35,712 nucleotides of DNA from Actinomycetota bacterium. GTDB taxonomy: Bacteria; Actinomycetota; Acidimicrobiia; Acidimicrobiales; Ilumatobacteraceae. The stretch spans positions 1 through 35,712 of the forward strand of contig RFQQ01000003.1 in NCBI GenBank assembly GCA_009924875.1. Reading direction: 5' to 3'. Position numbers and translations under genes: made by a program. Positions 1 to 25,257 of this stretch are shown in pieces (the first letter of the stretch is position 1; each line of letters begins with the position of its first letter). A model generated the notes under the pieces. It worked only from the letters and a program-made list of their open reading frames with translations, was not told the origin of the DNA and made no database searches.

Positions 1-870
1 CGTGCCGTCGCCCGAGCAGGCCTCGCAGCGGCCCCCCTTGACGTTGAACGAGAACCGACCGGGCAGGTAGCCGCGCACCTTCGCCTCGTTCGTGGTCGCG
101 AACAACTTTCGAATGTGGTCGAACACGCCGGTGTAGGTCGCAGGGTTCGATCGCGGCGTGCGGCCGATCGGCGACTGGTCCATGTCGATCACCTTGTCGA
201 GATGCTCGATCCCGTCAATCCGCTTGTGTCGTCCGGCCGGCGTCTTCGATTTATAGATGCGCTGCATCAGCACCGGCAGCAAGATGTCGCGGACCAGCGT
301 CGACTTGCCCGAACCCGACACGCCGGTGACCGCCACGAAGCATCCGAGCGGGATCTCGACCGTCAGATCGTCGAGGTTGTGCTCGCGGGCACCTCGGACC
401 ACCAGGCGTTCCGCCTTGGGAGCGCGTCGCTCCCCCGGCACGGGGATCGAACGTCGACCGGAGAGATAGTCACCCGTCACCGAATCGGCCACCGCGTTGA
501 GACCCGGCACGGGCCCGGAATAGACGACCTGGCCACCGTGCTCGCCGGCCCCGGGGCCGATATCGACGATCCAGTCGCTCTCCCGAATCGTCTCCTCATC
601 GTGCTCAACCACGAGCACGGTGTTGCCGAGATCACGGAGCCGGGTGAGCGTGTCAATGAGCCGGCGGTTGTCGCGCTGGTGCAGACCGATCGACGGCTCG
701 TCGAGCACATACAGGGTGCCGACGAGACCCGACCCGATCTGGCTCGCGAGCCGGATGCGCTGCGCCTCACCCCCAGCGAGGGTGCCCGCCGAGCGGGCCA
801 GAGTCAGGTAGTCGAGGCCGACGTCGAGGAGGAAGCCGAGGCGGGCGTTGATCTCCTTGGTCGCGGTCGC
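1..870 (-). CDS. uvrA: Excinuclease ABC subunit A, C-terminal part (runs off the left edge; different frame from the N-terminal part)
   Basis: Minus-strand translation reads [72 protein letters not shown]... to [24 protein letters not shown] at the window edge. These are canonical UvrA motifs, +1 in frame relative to ORF 767..2371. Confidence 0.9.
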
Positions 871-2371
871 GCTCGCCGAGTTCGAGACCAGCGAGGAACT
901 CGGCCGAGTCGCCGATCGACATCTCACACACCTCGGAGATGTTCTTCCCGTTCACCGTGACGGCGAGGGTGAACGGCCGGAGTCTCGCGCCGCCGCAGGC
1001 CGAGCACGGCACCTCGCGCATGTATCCCTCGAACTGCTCACGGGTCCAGTCGCTGTCAGCCTGCTCGTGGCGCCGCTTGATCCATGGGATCACCCCTTCG
1101 TACTCGGTGCTGTAGGAGCGCTGACGTCCGTAACGGTTGCGATAGCGCACCGTCAACTGACCTCCGGTGCCGTGGAGCAGTATCCGCTGCTGCTTGGCCG
1201 GCAGGCTCGACCACGGGACATCGAGGTCGATGTCGTTGGCGTCCGCCACTGACTCGAGCATTCGCACGAAGTACTGCGTGTGAGCGCTCCGCCACGGGGC
1301 GATCGCTCCGTCGTGCACGGTGAGATCGACATCGGGGACGACGAGCTCCGGATCGACCTCGAAGGTCGTGCCAAGCCCGTCGCAGGTCTCGCAAGCCCCA
1401 TAGGGCGAGTTGAACGAGAAGTTGCGCGGAGCGGGCTCCGGATGGCTCGCACCACAGGTTGGGCAGGCGAGATGCTGGCTAAAGGTCAGCGTCTCGTCCT
1501 CACCTCCCTCTCCGGCCCCGACCAGTTCGATCTGGGCCACGCCATCGGCGAGGGTGAGGGCCGACTCGAGGGAGTCGGTGAGTCGACGCTCGATGCCCTC
1601 GCGGAGCACGAGACGGTCGACGACCACCTCGATGTCGTGTTGCTCGTAGCGAGCGAGTTTCTCCTCGCGGGCGAGGAACTCATCGATCTGCACCGTCTCA
1701 CCGTCGACCCGCGCTCGCACATAGCCCTGACCGGACAGGTCCTCGAGCAGCGACTCGTACTCGCCCTTGCGTCCGCGGACCACCGGGGCGAGCACCTGGA
1801 ATCGGGTTCCCTCCGGCAGTTCGAGCACACGGTCGACGATCTGTTGCGGTGTTTGGCGCTGTAGGCGGGTGCCGTCATCCGGACAGTGCTGCACCCCGAT
1901 CCGGGCATACAGCAGGCGGAGGTAGTCGTAGACCTCGGTGATCGTCCCCACCGTCGACCGAGGGTTCCGGCTGGCCGACTTCTGATCGATGGAGATCGCG
2001 GGCGAGAGCCCCTCGATGACATCGACATCGGGTTTGTCCATCTGTCCGAGGAACTGCCGCGCGTAGGAGGACAGTGACTCGACATAGCGCCGCTGACCCT
2101 CGGCGTAGATCGTGTCGAAGGCGAGGCTCGACTTACCCGAGCCGGACAGCCCGGTGAGCACGACAAGCCGGTCGCGCGGGATCTCGACGTTCACGTTCCG
2201 AAGGTTGTGCTCCCGTGCTCCGCGGACGGAGATCACCGGGGGCCCGTCCGATGATGGCGACGCCTTCGTCGTCACGGTCTGCCTCGCTGGTGCCTTCTTC
2301 GTGGGCGCCTTCTTCGCCACCGCCTTCTTCGATGGCGACTTCTTCGCGGTCGTCGAGGATCGGGGGGCCAT
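859..2371 (-). CDS. uvrA: Excinuclease ABC subunit A, N-terminal part (frame ends in non-UvrA sequence after about 865)
   Basis: ORF 767..2371: [69 protein letters not shown]...; zinc-finger [34 protein letters not shown] Lys/Ala-rich N-terminal extension is present. Confidence 0.93.
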
Positions 2372-21308: not shown

Positions 21309-22037
21309 TCAGTGGCGTTCGAACAGGGCGATCGCCTTGAGTCGTCGCTCAAGGTGGTGCTCCATCGCTCTCGTAGCGAGCAGACCGACTTCATGGGTGG
21401 CGGGGCTCTCCGGTGCCGCCAGCGCCTCGTTGAGGCGCCCACCGAGGACGCAGCGCAAGAGCGAGAGGGCCGCCGGCGAGACCGACACCCCGGAACGGCA
21501 ATTACGGCAAAGAACCCCGCCCTCATCGAGATCGAAGGCGACGAGCTCGACCTCATCCCCGCTCTCCTCGCACCGGACACAGGCGTCGAGCACCGGCGAG
21601 AGCCCCTCGGCCGCCAGCAACTTCCAATAAAAGGCGGGGACGTTCATCGGGGACGGCCGCTCCGCGATCGTGCGCAACACGCCGACCGTCGAACGGAACA
21701 GCTGTGGGGTCGGCTCACGGTCGAGTGCGAGCTGCTCGGCTGCCTCGATCGCCGCCATACCCTGTGATGTCCGGTCGAGGGAGGAGAGCAGCGGTCCCAA
21801 GCGGTCGAGCGACTCTGCCTGGCTGACGGTGTCGAGCTCACGACCACGACGGAGTTGCACCGCGATGTGACTCATCGGTTCGAGTCGTCCACCGAACTTC
21901 GAGTTGGTCTTGCGCACCCCATGCGCGACCGCGCGGACCTTCCCGTGCTCCTGGGTGAGCAACACCACGATCCGATCGGACTCGCGCAGGCGATAGGTGC
22001 GCAGCACCACCGCCTCGTCGCGGTAGAGCTCCTTCAC
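21309..22037 (-). CDS. recO: DNA repair protein RecO
   Basis: EAVVLRTYRLRESDRIVVLLTQEHGKVRAVAHGVRKTNSKFGGRLEP; C-terminal CVRCEE...CRNC zinc cluster. Confidence 0.94.
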   Translation of the reverse strand: MKELYRDEAVVLRTYRLRESDRIVVLLTQEHGKVRAVAHGVRKTNSKFGGRLEPMSHIAVQLRRGRELDTVSQAESLDRLGPLLSSLDRTSQGMAAIEAAEQLALDREPTPQLFRSTVGVLRTIAERPSPMNVPAFYWKLLAAEGLSPVLDACVRCEESGDEVELVAFDLDEGGVLCRNCRSGVSVSPAALSLLRCVLGGRLNEALAAPESPATHEVGLLATRAMEHHLERRLKAIALFERH

Positions 22038-22633
22038 GCGTCAAGTCCGCCGAAGCGGCGTCGCCGGCCCGCGTACTCGGCGACAGCAGCGACGAGATGA
22101 CCCGCTTCGAGATTCCCCCAGGCCACCTCCGTGAAGACCAGTTCGGCGTAGGCGAGCTCCCACACGAGCGACGGCGGGAGGCGCGTCGCGGGACCGAGCA
22201 CCAGCACCAGATCCGGTTCGCAATCGGCCGGCTCGTACAGCACGTTCGCGACGGAGGCTTCGTTCACCTGGTCCTCTCCGATCGCGCGCATCGCGGCGGC
22301 GAACCGCTCGCGTCCATCCGCGGCCGGATCGACGATCACCGTGCACGAACCGACCACCTCGGCGCTGACGGCGACTGGCTCTGCGTCAGGCGCAGGATCG
22401 AGACGGCCCGCCAGCCCGGCGACTCCCTCGCCGGAGTACGGCCGGAGCGTCAACCACTCCACGCCAAGATCCGCCGCGACCGTTCCGAGATCGCGTCGCC
22501 GCGTCGCCCACGCCGACCGACCGAGCGCCTCCCAATCCTCCGTCGAGCCACCTACGACGAGCACATGGGCGGGCCCCATCTGGTCTCGGCCGGCCGGGCC
22601 GGCATCGGCCATCGCTGACACACCCGACGTCAC
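22034..22633 (-). CDS. Degenerate undecaprenyl-diphosphate synthase-like protein (catalytic motifs lost, C-terminal RRRRFGG retained); candidate NgBR-like subunit
   Basis: HVLVVGGSTEDWEALGRS...DLGVEWLTLRPYSGEG...VNEASVANVLYEPADCEPDLVLVLGPATRLPPSLVWELAYAELVFTEVAWGNLEAGHLVAAVAEYAGRRRRFGGLDA co-aligns with UppS. Start uncertain (GTG 22633, ATG 22612 or ATG 22579). 4-nt overlap with recO. Confidence 0.75.
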   Translation of the reverse strand: MTSGVSAMADAGPAGRDQMGPAHVLVVGGSTEDWEALGRSAWATRRRDLGTVAADLGVEWLTLRPYSGEGVAGLAGRLDPAPDAEPVAVSAEVVGSCTVIVDPAADGRERFAAAMRAIGEDQVNEASVANVLYEPADCEPDLVLVLGPATRLPPSLVWELAYAELVFTEVAWGNLEAGHLVAAVAEYAGRRRRFGGLDA

Positions 22634-22639
22634 CGACAC

Positions 22640-22666
22640 ATTGTCGCACGACCCCATCGCTAACGT
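22640..22666. promoter_or_regulatory. Candidate overlapping divergent promoters of uppS and the UppS-like gene
   Basis: Plus: TAACGT (22661-22666) then 9 nt then GTG 22676. Minus: GACAAT (22645-22640) then 6 nt then GTG 22633. Confidence 0.35.
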
Positions 22667-22675
22667 GGTCCTCCC

Positions 22676-23374
22676 GTGGCGAACTCCCCGACATCCCGCG
22701 AGCAGCCCCGCCCCGAACGGCCACTGCACGTCGCCTGCATCATGGACGGCAACGGCCGCTGGGCCGAGCAGCGCGCCCTGCCGAGAACAGCGGGACATAC
22801 CGCCGGTGAGGAGAACCTCGCCGAGGTTGTGCGCGCCTGCGTCGCCCGCGGAGTCGGATGGCTCACCGTGTTCGGCTTCTCGACCGAGAACTGGGTTCGG
22901 CCGCGGGCCGAGGTGCGTCACATCCTCGGCCTCCACGAGCGGCTTTTCGGGCGACTCGAGGAGCTCAACGAGAACAATGTTCGGGTGCGCTGGATCGGAC
23001 GACCCTTCGACGGTCCCGAGGCCCGCACGCCGAAGTACGTGCAGCGCGCGATCCGCCGAGCGATCAACGACACCTCGTCGAACACGGGCATGACGCTCAC
23101 CGTCGCCTTCGACTACGGCGGTCGTGCCGAGCTCATGTCCGCAGTCCGCGCATTGAGAGCCGACACCGGCACCGTCGATGCTGATCGCCTCGCCGCTCAC
23201 CTCTACGACCCAGAACTTCCCGACGTCGATGTGCTCGTGCGCACGAGCGGCGAGATGCGCGTATCGAACTTCCTCCTCTGGCAGTCCGCCGGGGCCGCCA
23301 TCCACTTCACGGACGCCGCCTGGCCCGACTTCGACGCCGAGGACCTCGACCGCGCACTGGACCTCGTTCGTTGA
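22676..23374 (+). CDS. uppS: Undecaprenyl (polyprenyl) diphosphate synthase, catalytic cis-prenyltransferase, lacking the C-terminal RRFGG tail
   Basis: HVACIMDGNGRWAEQRALPRTAGHTAGEENL, LTVFGFSTENWVRP, AFDYGGRAEL, LVRTSGEMRVSNFLLWQSAGAAIHFTDAAWPDF; ends ...LDRALDLVR-stop. Confidence 0.95.
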   Translation: MANSPTSREQPRPERPLHVACIMDGNGRWAEQRALPRTAGHTAGEENLAEVVRACVARGVGWLTVFGFSTENWVRPRAEVRHILGLHERLFGRLEELNENNVRVRWIGRPFDGPEARTPKYVQRAIRRAINDTSSNTGMTLTVAFDYGGRAELMSAVRALRADTGTVDADRLAAHLYDPELPDVDVLVRTSGEMRVSNFLLWQSAGAAIHFTDAAWPDFDAEDLDRALDLVR

Positions 23375-25257
23375 GCGAGAGCCCGCTCGGCGTCGGCGAG
23401 CTCCTCGACATCGCGACCTCGGCGCTACCAGCCGCTGAACGACGACCGGGCCAGAGGGAGATGGCCGACGCGGTCGACCGAGCCATCGCCGACGGACGTC
23501 ACCTCGTGGTTCAGGCCGGGACCGGCACCGGCAAGACGCTCGCCTATCTCGTCCCCGCCCTGCGCGCTGGTCGCACCGTCGTCGTCGCCACCGCGACCAA
23601 GGCGCTACAGGATCAGCTCGCCACCAAGGACTTGCCCTTCCTCGCCGAGCATCTCCGCGAGCCACTCGGCCGCGACCTCGAATGGGCGGTCCTCAAGGGG
23701 CGCTCGAACTACCTCTGCCGCCAACGACTCGCCGAGATCTCCTCCGGCGATGATCAGTTAGCCCTCGAGGGCCTCGGCGATGGCCGCCGAGAGGAGATCG
23801 CGGCGCTCGCCAGTTGGGCCGAATCGAGCGAGACCGGTGACCAGGCCGAGCTCGACCGCCTCCCCGATCCAGCGGTGTGGCGGGCCGTGAGCGTCACCTC
23901 CGATGAGTGCCCGGGCGCGAGTCGATGTCCGCTCGGCTCTACCTGCTTCGCCGAGGTCGCCCGAGACCGCGCCTCCACCGCGGACGTGGTGGTCGTGAAC
24001 ACCCACCTCTACGGCTTGAACGTGGGTGCCGACGATGCGATCCTGCCCGAGCACGACATCGTCGTCTTCGACGAGGCCCACGTCCTCGAGGACGTGATGA
24101 GCGACACCGTCGGGGTCGACCTCTCCCCCAGCCGATTCTCCACCGTCGCCTCGACCGTGCGACGCATCATCGACGACCCCTCGCTCATCGCGTCGATCTC
24201 CGATGCCGGCATCGCCTTCGGGGAGATCATCGAGGGCCACCGTGGGGAACGACTCGAGATACCGCTCCCCGCCGATGTCACCGCCGCCCTCGTCACTGCC
24301 CGCGGCTCGCTCGAACGGGCCTCCGCGGTGGTGAACGCCATTGAGACCGACGTGGAGGACGCGCGTCAACGCCGCCTCCGCGCGCAGGTGATCCTCACCC
24401 GATCCACCGAGATGATCGACCGAACCCTGTCACCCTCGGCCGACACGGTCGCGTTCGTCTCCGGCGCTCCCGGTTCACCCTCCCTCGAGATCGCCCCCCT
24501 CGACGTCGGCCCGACCATGGAAGCCGGCGTCTGGTCACGTCGCACCGCGATTCTCACCTCAGCGACAGTGCCGCGTTCCCTACCCGAGCGAATCGGCCTG
24601 CCCGAACCCGAGGTGATCGACGTCGGCAGCCCGTTCGACTACGGCGAGAACTCCCTTCTCTACTGCGCCATGCACCTTCCCGCGCCGAACGACCCCGATT
24701 TCCGCGCGGCAACCCACGAGGAGCTCGCCGCCCTCATCACCGCGGCCGGCGGCCGAACCCTCGCCCTCTTCACCAGCTGGGCCGCCATGGACGAGGCGGC
24801 CTCCGCCCTCACCGGACGGGTCCCACACACCATCCTCACCCAGCGCGATCTCCCGAAGCCGGCGCTCGTCGCCGCCTTCGCCGAGGACGAGTCCACCTGC
24901 CTGTTCGCGACCGCCGGTCTCTTCCAAGGGGTCGACGTTCCCGGCCGCACCCTCTCGCTCGTGGTGATCGACCGGATCCCCTTCCCTCGACCGGACGATC
25001 CCCTGCTCTCGGCTCGACGCGACCGGCTCGGCCGCGCAGCCTTCGGCCAAATCGACCTGCCTCGCGCGGCCACCATGCTCGCCCAGGCCAGCGGGCGCCT
25101 CATCCGCAACGATGCCGACCGAGGAGTCGTCGCGGTGCTCGACCGCCGACTCGGCACCGCCGGATACCGCTGGGATCTCATCTCGGCCCTCCCACCCATG
25201 CGACGAACCCGGGACCGCGCGGAGGCGGAGCGGTTCCTGCGGACGATCACCGACTGA
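23371..25257 (+). CDS. dinG: DinG-family ATP-dependent helicase (XPD-like, Fe-S)
   Basis: VVQAGTGTGKTLAYLVPAL, CRQRL...CPGASRCPLGSTCF cysteines, VVFDEAHVLEDV, LASGRLIRN-type motif (AQASGRLIRNDADRGVVAVLDRR). TTG start overlaps the uppS stop. Confidence 0.92.
   Translation: MSESPLGVGELLDIATSALPAAERRPGQREMADAVDRAIADGRHLVVQAGTGTGKTLAYLVPALRAGRTVVVATATKALQDQLATKDLPFLAEHLREPLGRDLEWAVLKGRSNYLCRQRLAEISSGDDQLALEGLGDGRREEIAALASWAESSETGDQAELDRLPDPAVWRAVSVTSDECPGASRCPLGSTCFAEVARDRASTADVVVVNTHLYGLNVGADDAILPEHDIVVFDEAHVLEDVMSDTVGVDLSPSRFSTVASTVRRIIDDPSLIASISDAGIAFGEIIEGHRGERLEIPLPADVTAALVTARGSLERASAVVNAIETDVEDARQRRLRAQVILTRSTEMIDRTLSPSADTVAFVSGAPGSPSLEIAPLDVGPTMEAGVWSRRTAILTSATVPRSLPERIGLPEPEVIDVGSPFDYGENSLLYCAMHLPAPNDPDFRAATHEELAALITAAGGRTLALFTSWAAMDEAASALTGRVPHTILTQRDLPKPALVAAFAEDESTCLFATAGLFQGVDVPGRTLSLVVIDRIPFPRPDDPLLSARRDRLGRAAFGQIDLPRAATMLAQASGRLIRNDADRGVVAVLDRRLGTAGYRWDLISALPPMRRTRDRAEAERFLRTITD

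Follow-up and report, generated by a model that had tools for sequence, protein, structure and literature searches.

A probable divided cis-prenyltransferase in Ilumatobacteraceae: a tail-less UppS and its predicted tail-donating partner

Two divergent neighbor genes of Ilumatobacteraceae very probably encode the subunits of a heteromeric cis-prenyltransferase making undecaprenyl (or decaprenyl) diphosphate. UppS, which makes the cell-wall carrier lipid, is also a target of antibacterials, and heteromeric forms of cis-prenyltransferase occur in both eukaryotes and archaea. Our prediction draws on how active-site residues are distributed over the two products, on predicted structures, on the co-occurrence and gene order of the two genes across relatives, and on the selection acting on them; from these patterns, we infer heterodimer formation, the need for the partner, the position of its tail, and the identity of the product.

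Two divergent genes with UppS features

The 35,712-nt stretch of Ilumatobacteraceae (order Acidimicrobiales) DNA analyzed here (hereafter “the window”) carries uppS on the forward strand at positions 22,676–23,374, encoding a tail-less cis-prenyltransferase of 232 aa from a GTG start at 22,676. Its product, the catalytic subunit, matches positions 1–208 of the 219-position Pfam profile PF01255 with 226 bits, and ends 14 residues past the WPD motif, short of the tail. In the sequence, the codon of the catalytic Asp (equivalent to E. coli D26, within MDGNGRW) lies at 22,745–22,747 (+), and RTSGEMRVSNF, the IPP-binding (S2) motif, at 23,240–23,272 (+), with the R194, R200, and S202 positions of the latter invariant in 90/90 catalytic copies. 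The full cis-prenyltransferase catalytic residue set is likewise present in all 90 of these homologues. The sequence-only reading of this gene, i.e., all catalytic motifs but no C-terminal RxG tail, is thus borne out by the truncated profile match and by the lack of RxG at every one of 131 catalytic loci. At 23,371, uppS overlaps by 4 nt with the gene of a DinG-like helicase (23,371–25,257, +; Pfam Helicase_C_2 and DEAD).

On the opposite strand, positions 22,034–22,633 encode a non-catalytic UppS-like partner of 199 aa (from GTG at 22,633) or 192 aa (from ATG at 22,612). It matches PF01255 across profile positions 130–219 with 49.1 bits (E 6.7e-13), for a curated cut-off of 27 bits, and we rejected chance or weak similarity to UppS since the score exceeds the Pfam cut-off both in the window and in relatives. 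The likeness is confined to the C-terminal half of the protein, because of which the partner can easily be overlooked by annotation. Its C-terminus reads RRRRFGGLDA, with RRRRFGG at 22,046–22,066 (−) and the RxG itself, as R-F-G, at 22,049–22,057; R-R-F-G is invariant in 91/91 partners and is proposed to complete the active site of the catalytic subunit. Three further features first noticed in the window alone hold up: the catalytic Asp position is Gly in all 91 partners, the middle of the protein is shorter by ~40 residues, and the gene overlaps by 4 nt with recO (21,309–22,037, −; Pfam RecO_N and RecO_C). The Trp of MDGNGRW is kept in 91/91 partners although the Asp is replaced, and a partner-specific PPSLVWELAY replaces SNFLLWELAY, the S202 position being Pro in 90/91.

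Between the two start codons (GTG at 22,633 and GTG at 22,676) lies a 42-bp divergent promoter region (22,634–22,675), whose candidate −10 elements, GACAAT at 22,640–22,645 (−) and TAACGT at 22,661–22,666 (+), are both placed for a leaderless start. Both motifs recur in the intergenic regions of relatives (39/78 against a shuffled mean of 0.12, and 30/78 against 2.9), in counts inflated by near relatives and against a shuffle that preserved base composition only. A promoter scan found no sigma-70 consensus pair. Elsewhere in the window (1–2371, −), a UvrA frame (767–2371) stops at 534 aa and a conserved 10-residue stretch of the UvrA C-terminal part is found at about 705 in a different frame, so that this gene is frameshifted here, either through assembly error or in reality.

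Predicted structures

AlphaFold2, run on the family alignment, predicted the partner with a pLDDT of 89 and a pTM of 0.86, and the 50 best PDB matches of this model in Foldseek were all cis-prenyltransferases (best E 6e-7, TM about 0.6), in line with the UPPS fold that the sequence-only reading had anticipated. The model lacks the middle helices found in the catalytic subunit, and the TM of only ~0.6 to solved UPPS chains is due in part to this missing middle. The catalytic subunit was predicted with a pLDDT of 86, and its best PDB match was the dodecaprenyl-diphosphate synthase of T. fusca (TM 0.84), to which it is 45% identical (7cpn). The last residues of the partner (177–181) are low in pLDDT, which is compatible with a tail that gains order only within a complex, without demonstrating one.

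Complementary loss of catalytic residues and tail

We compared 48 tailed UppS of the class, 90 catalytic copies, and 91 partners in a joint alignment, with E. coli numbering assigned by homology. D26 is retained in all 48 tailed UppS and all 90 catalytic copies but in 0/91 partners, where Gly takes its place throughout. The same division holds for N28, R30, R39, H43, S71, N74, R77, R194, and S202, present in 90/90 catalytic copies and essentially absent from partners, while R200, invariant in catalytic copies, is often retained in partners too (51/91). Conversely, 91/91 partners have the tail residues R239, R241, R242, and G244, which the catalytic copies lack, with RxG detected at none of 131 loci (116 complete sequences and 15 rechecked borderline loci, most of the latter picked because their PF01255 matches ran furthest). 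Tail loss by frameshift or assembly error was rejected, given the absence of the tail in all 131 loci and of any intact in-frame tail when the 15 loci were translated beyond the stop. Overall, the complementary split of catalytic residues and tail is fixed across pair-bearing genomes, and in neither chain of the pair do the catalytic Asp and RxG occur together, as they do in an ordinary homodimeric UppS.

The split extends to the helix preceding the WPD motif. There, Y211 and E213 are invariant in both tailed UppS and partners, while Y211 is changed to Gly in 81/90 catalytic copies and E213 is lost in 76/90 (kept in 14/90). In PDB sequences, human DHDDS has Cys at the E213 position, and NgBR has Glu there and ends in RLGK. 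Since Glu213 is divided in the same way in DHDDS/NgBR, and RxG is too, the split agrees in two respects with that of the human enzyme.

Distribution of the pair

Both PF01255 matches were found in 135 of the 150 sampled Ilumatobacteraceae genomes and, among the matches listed for these 150, the catalytic ones all stop before the profile end. The genome of the window, a draft assembly that is 58% complete, yielded no third PF01255 copy; given this level of completeness, the question of a second, tailed UppS is decided by closed relatives instead. The sequence-only reading had implied that no such gene would accompany the pair and that tail-less UppS would not occur without a partner. Consistent with the former, the closed pair-bearing genomes G043, G049, and G067 contain exactly two PF01255 matches each, i.e., the pair, and no second tailed uppS; as for the latter, tail-less UppS without a partner was found among relatives only at contig ends and in the metagenome-assembled genome (MAG) G015. 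Contig ends removed the other gene in G004, G059, G087, G153, and G167, and account for about half of the exceptions within the family. In G015, a single in-frame TAG (locus L032, 2259–2261) interrupts an otherwise intact partner gene that is uninterrupted in close relatives, and may be a sequencing error, a strain variant, or a true loss.

The two genes are retained even when separated: both are present on separate contigs in G170, G172, and G173, and in four loci they lie 0.7–2.3 kb apart. A single full-length tailed UppS occurs in G042, G053, G085, and G134, a tailed-type fragment at a contig end in G144, and no PF01255 match at all in four incomplete family genomes. G134 and G144 (loci L148 and L160) are grouped with the pair-bearing genus g29 yet have a single tailed-type UppS; the G134 assembly is full of broken frames, with rpoB in pieces, and binning or quality may be responsible. 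In G159, the catalytic and the partner gene each occur twice, over two contigs (L126/L143 and L149/L163), representing either a joint duplication or a contaminant.

Outside the family, each of 16 genomes, drawn from 16 further Acidimicrobiales families, has one UppS that reaches the profile end, and in a class-wide sample, all non-family UppS matches reach profile position 219 except one clipped by a contig end. A partner-profile search of a 398-genome phylum sample identified no full-length partner outside Ilumatobacteraceae, the other matches being those genomes' own UppS at far lower scores. In a scan with a single 8-residue pattern, the named relatives of the partner belonged to Ilumatobacteraceae or otherwise to Acidimicrobiia/Actinomycetota; most were MAGs, and Ilumatobacter nonamiensis YM16-303 was among them. 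The pair is thus a lineage-wide, near-universal character of Ilumatobacteraceae.

Origin of the pair

Outside Ilumatobacteraceae, nearly every family of the order that we read has uppS immediately upstream of recO on the same strand, with dinG divergent in several. In pair-bearing genomes, the partner occupies this old uppS slot, and the catalytic gene lies between the partner and dinG in the orientation of dinG. The sequence-only reading had placed the partner in the uppS slot beside recO: synteny across the order confirms this slot as the ancestral one, with the refinement that it is the partner, and not the catalytic gene, that holds it. The genus g28 (G042) has the dinG|uppS-recO arrangement with a tailed UppS, and the single tailed UppS of the basal genera g28 and g39 is the ancestral state. 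An rpoB tree places both of these genera outside those that bear the pair, with moderate support (71/84), and one gain therefore suffices. The pair probably arose once inside Ilumatobacteraceae, where the uppS preceding recO would have undergone an inverted duplication followed by reciprocal loss. Such an inverted duplication with reciprocal degeneration, in which we infer the duplication step, is the simplest reading of these loci.

A variant of this origin, compatible with a heteromer, has the catalytic subunit acquired horizontally from a donor beyond the order. The catalytic copies form a monophyletic clade (100/100) whose very long stem (2.18 changes per site) would suit such a transfer, as would its loose placement among Acidimicrobiia UppS. 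Against this, the catalytic and partner profiles both score best versus tailed UppS of the same order, and the catalytic gene was inserted precisely at the junction of the old uppS slot with dinG, so that we consider a transfer unlikely, if still a variant to reckon with. Orthology of the partner to NgBR/Nus1 was rejected, as its profile reaches 76.8 bits against E. coli UPPS and 27 bits against NgBR; it is further opposed by the best matches of the partner, among tailed UppS of its own order, and by its position in the ancestral uppS slot.

Selection on the two genes

Median dN/dS was 0.23 for the partner, 0.12 for the catalytic gene, and 0.13 for recO, and ranged from 0.03 to 0.24 for the partner among the 25 closest pairs: the partner is under purifying selection. 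Partner and catalytic distances were correlated given the recO distance (partial Mantel r 0.53, p 0.001), which is consistent with a joint function but no proof of contact, since both correlated distances and co-occurrence are also expected from linkage and shared history.

A proposed heteromeric enzyme

In the human enzyme of dolichol synthesis, the tail of NgBR reaches across the subunit interface, with the backbone N of L291 and G292 coordinating the S2 phosphate and R290 lying between S1 and S2 (PMC7573591). The conservation of RRFGG solely in the partner, opposite an enzyme without RxG, suggests the same trans-complementation in Ilumatobacteraceae. Specifically, the catalytic subunit would provide both substrate sites, for FPP (S1) and IPP (S2), together with the catalytic Asp, without an RxG tail, while the partner would provide the dimerization half of the UPPS fold along with the tail, having lost the active site and the part that would form the chain-tunnel wall. 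The RRFGG of the partner would cross the heterodimer interface into the active site of the catalytic subunit. There, the IPP diphosphate would be bound by backbone N-H groups of this motif, and the Arg would link the S1 and S2 diphosphates, in the manner of NgBR L291/G292/R290; one active site would result per heterodimer.

Some observations count against a heteromer, namely the E213 kept in some catalytic copies, the TAG in the G015 partner, and the modest TM of the partner model. In addition, MM_0014 of M. mazei is an active homodimer without RxG, with a TLGG end and shorter products (PMC8131916), so that RxG loss alone does not require a partner. The tail-less UppS could accordingly be a self-sufficient homodimer like MM_0014, with the partner acting as a regulator (e.g., a stabilizer or feedback sensor) that supplies no active-site residues, which would leave room for co-occurrence and co-evolution of the two proteins. 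Yet conservation in the partner is strictest in a part that includes the very tail absent from the enzyme (91/91), Y211 and E213 are divided the same way, an invariant RRFGG would be needless in a pure regulator, and the tail is retained in single-UppS relatives, all of which makes a purely regulatory role improbable. Least plausible of all is a decaying or repurposed paralogue of unrelated function (e.g., recO-linked) alongside an independent loss of the UppS tail: the 4-nt overlap with recO and the faster evolution of the partner relative to the catalytic protein would allow it, but it is opposed by a dN/dS well under 1, a confidently predicted fold, conserved residues that belong to the WELAYAE helix and the tail, and the retention of both genes together throughout Ilumatobacteraceae even when non-adjacent.

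For the heteromeric enzyme that we favor, dependence on the partner may be less than absolute. The human heteromer has a kcat about 400-fold above that of DHDDS alone, and DHDDS homodimers are weakly active (PMC7573591), so that “obligate” may mean strongly stimulated. It is likely that in this one family an essential homodimeric enzyme became an obligate active/dead heterodimer through a single duplication and reciprocal degeneration, converging on DHDDS/NgBR at RxG and Glu213.

Significance and comparison with known systems

If true, a bacterial two-subunit UppS would mean that evolution arrived at the DHDDS/NgBR design more than once. Such a system would be soluble and compact, and both its before-state (the single tailed UppS of g28 and g39) and its after-state survive, which allows a stepwise test of the transition from homodimer to obligate heterodimer and of the role of the dead subunit. 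Ilumatobacteraceae would also offer an interface-dependent version of the antibacterial target UppS, and a protein present across an environmental family would gain a name. In the literature searched, with subscription papers mostly outside coverage, we found no characterized bacterial heteromeric cis-prenyltransferase, and a 2020 review assigns the homodimeric class to bacteria and plants and describes the heteromeric one as typical of fungi, plants, and animals (PMC7839719).

Homodimeric UppS, as in E. coli, M. tuberculosis (Rv2361c), and Thermobifida fusca, share their fold and catalytic residues with the catalytic subunit, but combine RxG tail and catalytic Asp in one chain, whereas the Ilumatobacteraceae pair divides them over two. 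MM_0014 also lacks RxG, but is a homodimer for which no tail-donating partner has been described. A two-subunit prokaryotic cis-prenyltransferase is found in the same archaeon: MM_0618/MM_1083 of M. mazei is, according to Emi et al. 2019 as cited in PMC8131916, a heteromer making a C45-50 carrier lipid, which we liken to the Ilumatobacteraceae pair by description. The closest parallels are DHDDS/NgBR (NUS1) and the plant CPT/LEW1-type enzymes, which likewise associate an RxG-less catalytic subunit with a dead UPPS-fold subunit supplying RxG, and the Glu at E. coli position 213 is kept in both NgBR and the partner and lost in both DHDDS and most catalytic copies. Unlike DHDDS/NgBR, the Ilumatobacteraceae pair is bacterial and separately derived, with a partner profile nearer to bacterial UppS; its catalytic subunit is without the C-terminal helix-turn-helix of DHDDS, its partner has no N-terminal membrane segment visible in the sequence, and its product is presumably C50-C55 and not dolichol. 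Taken together, these likenesses and differences are best explained by a heteromer that is convergent with DHDDS/NgBR, i.e., one that evolved separately and is not orthologous to it.
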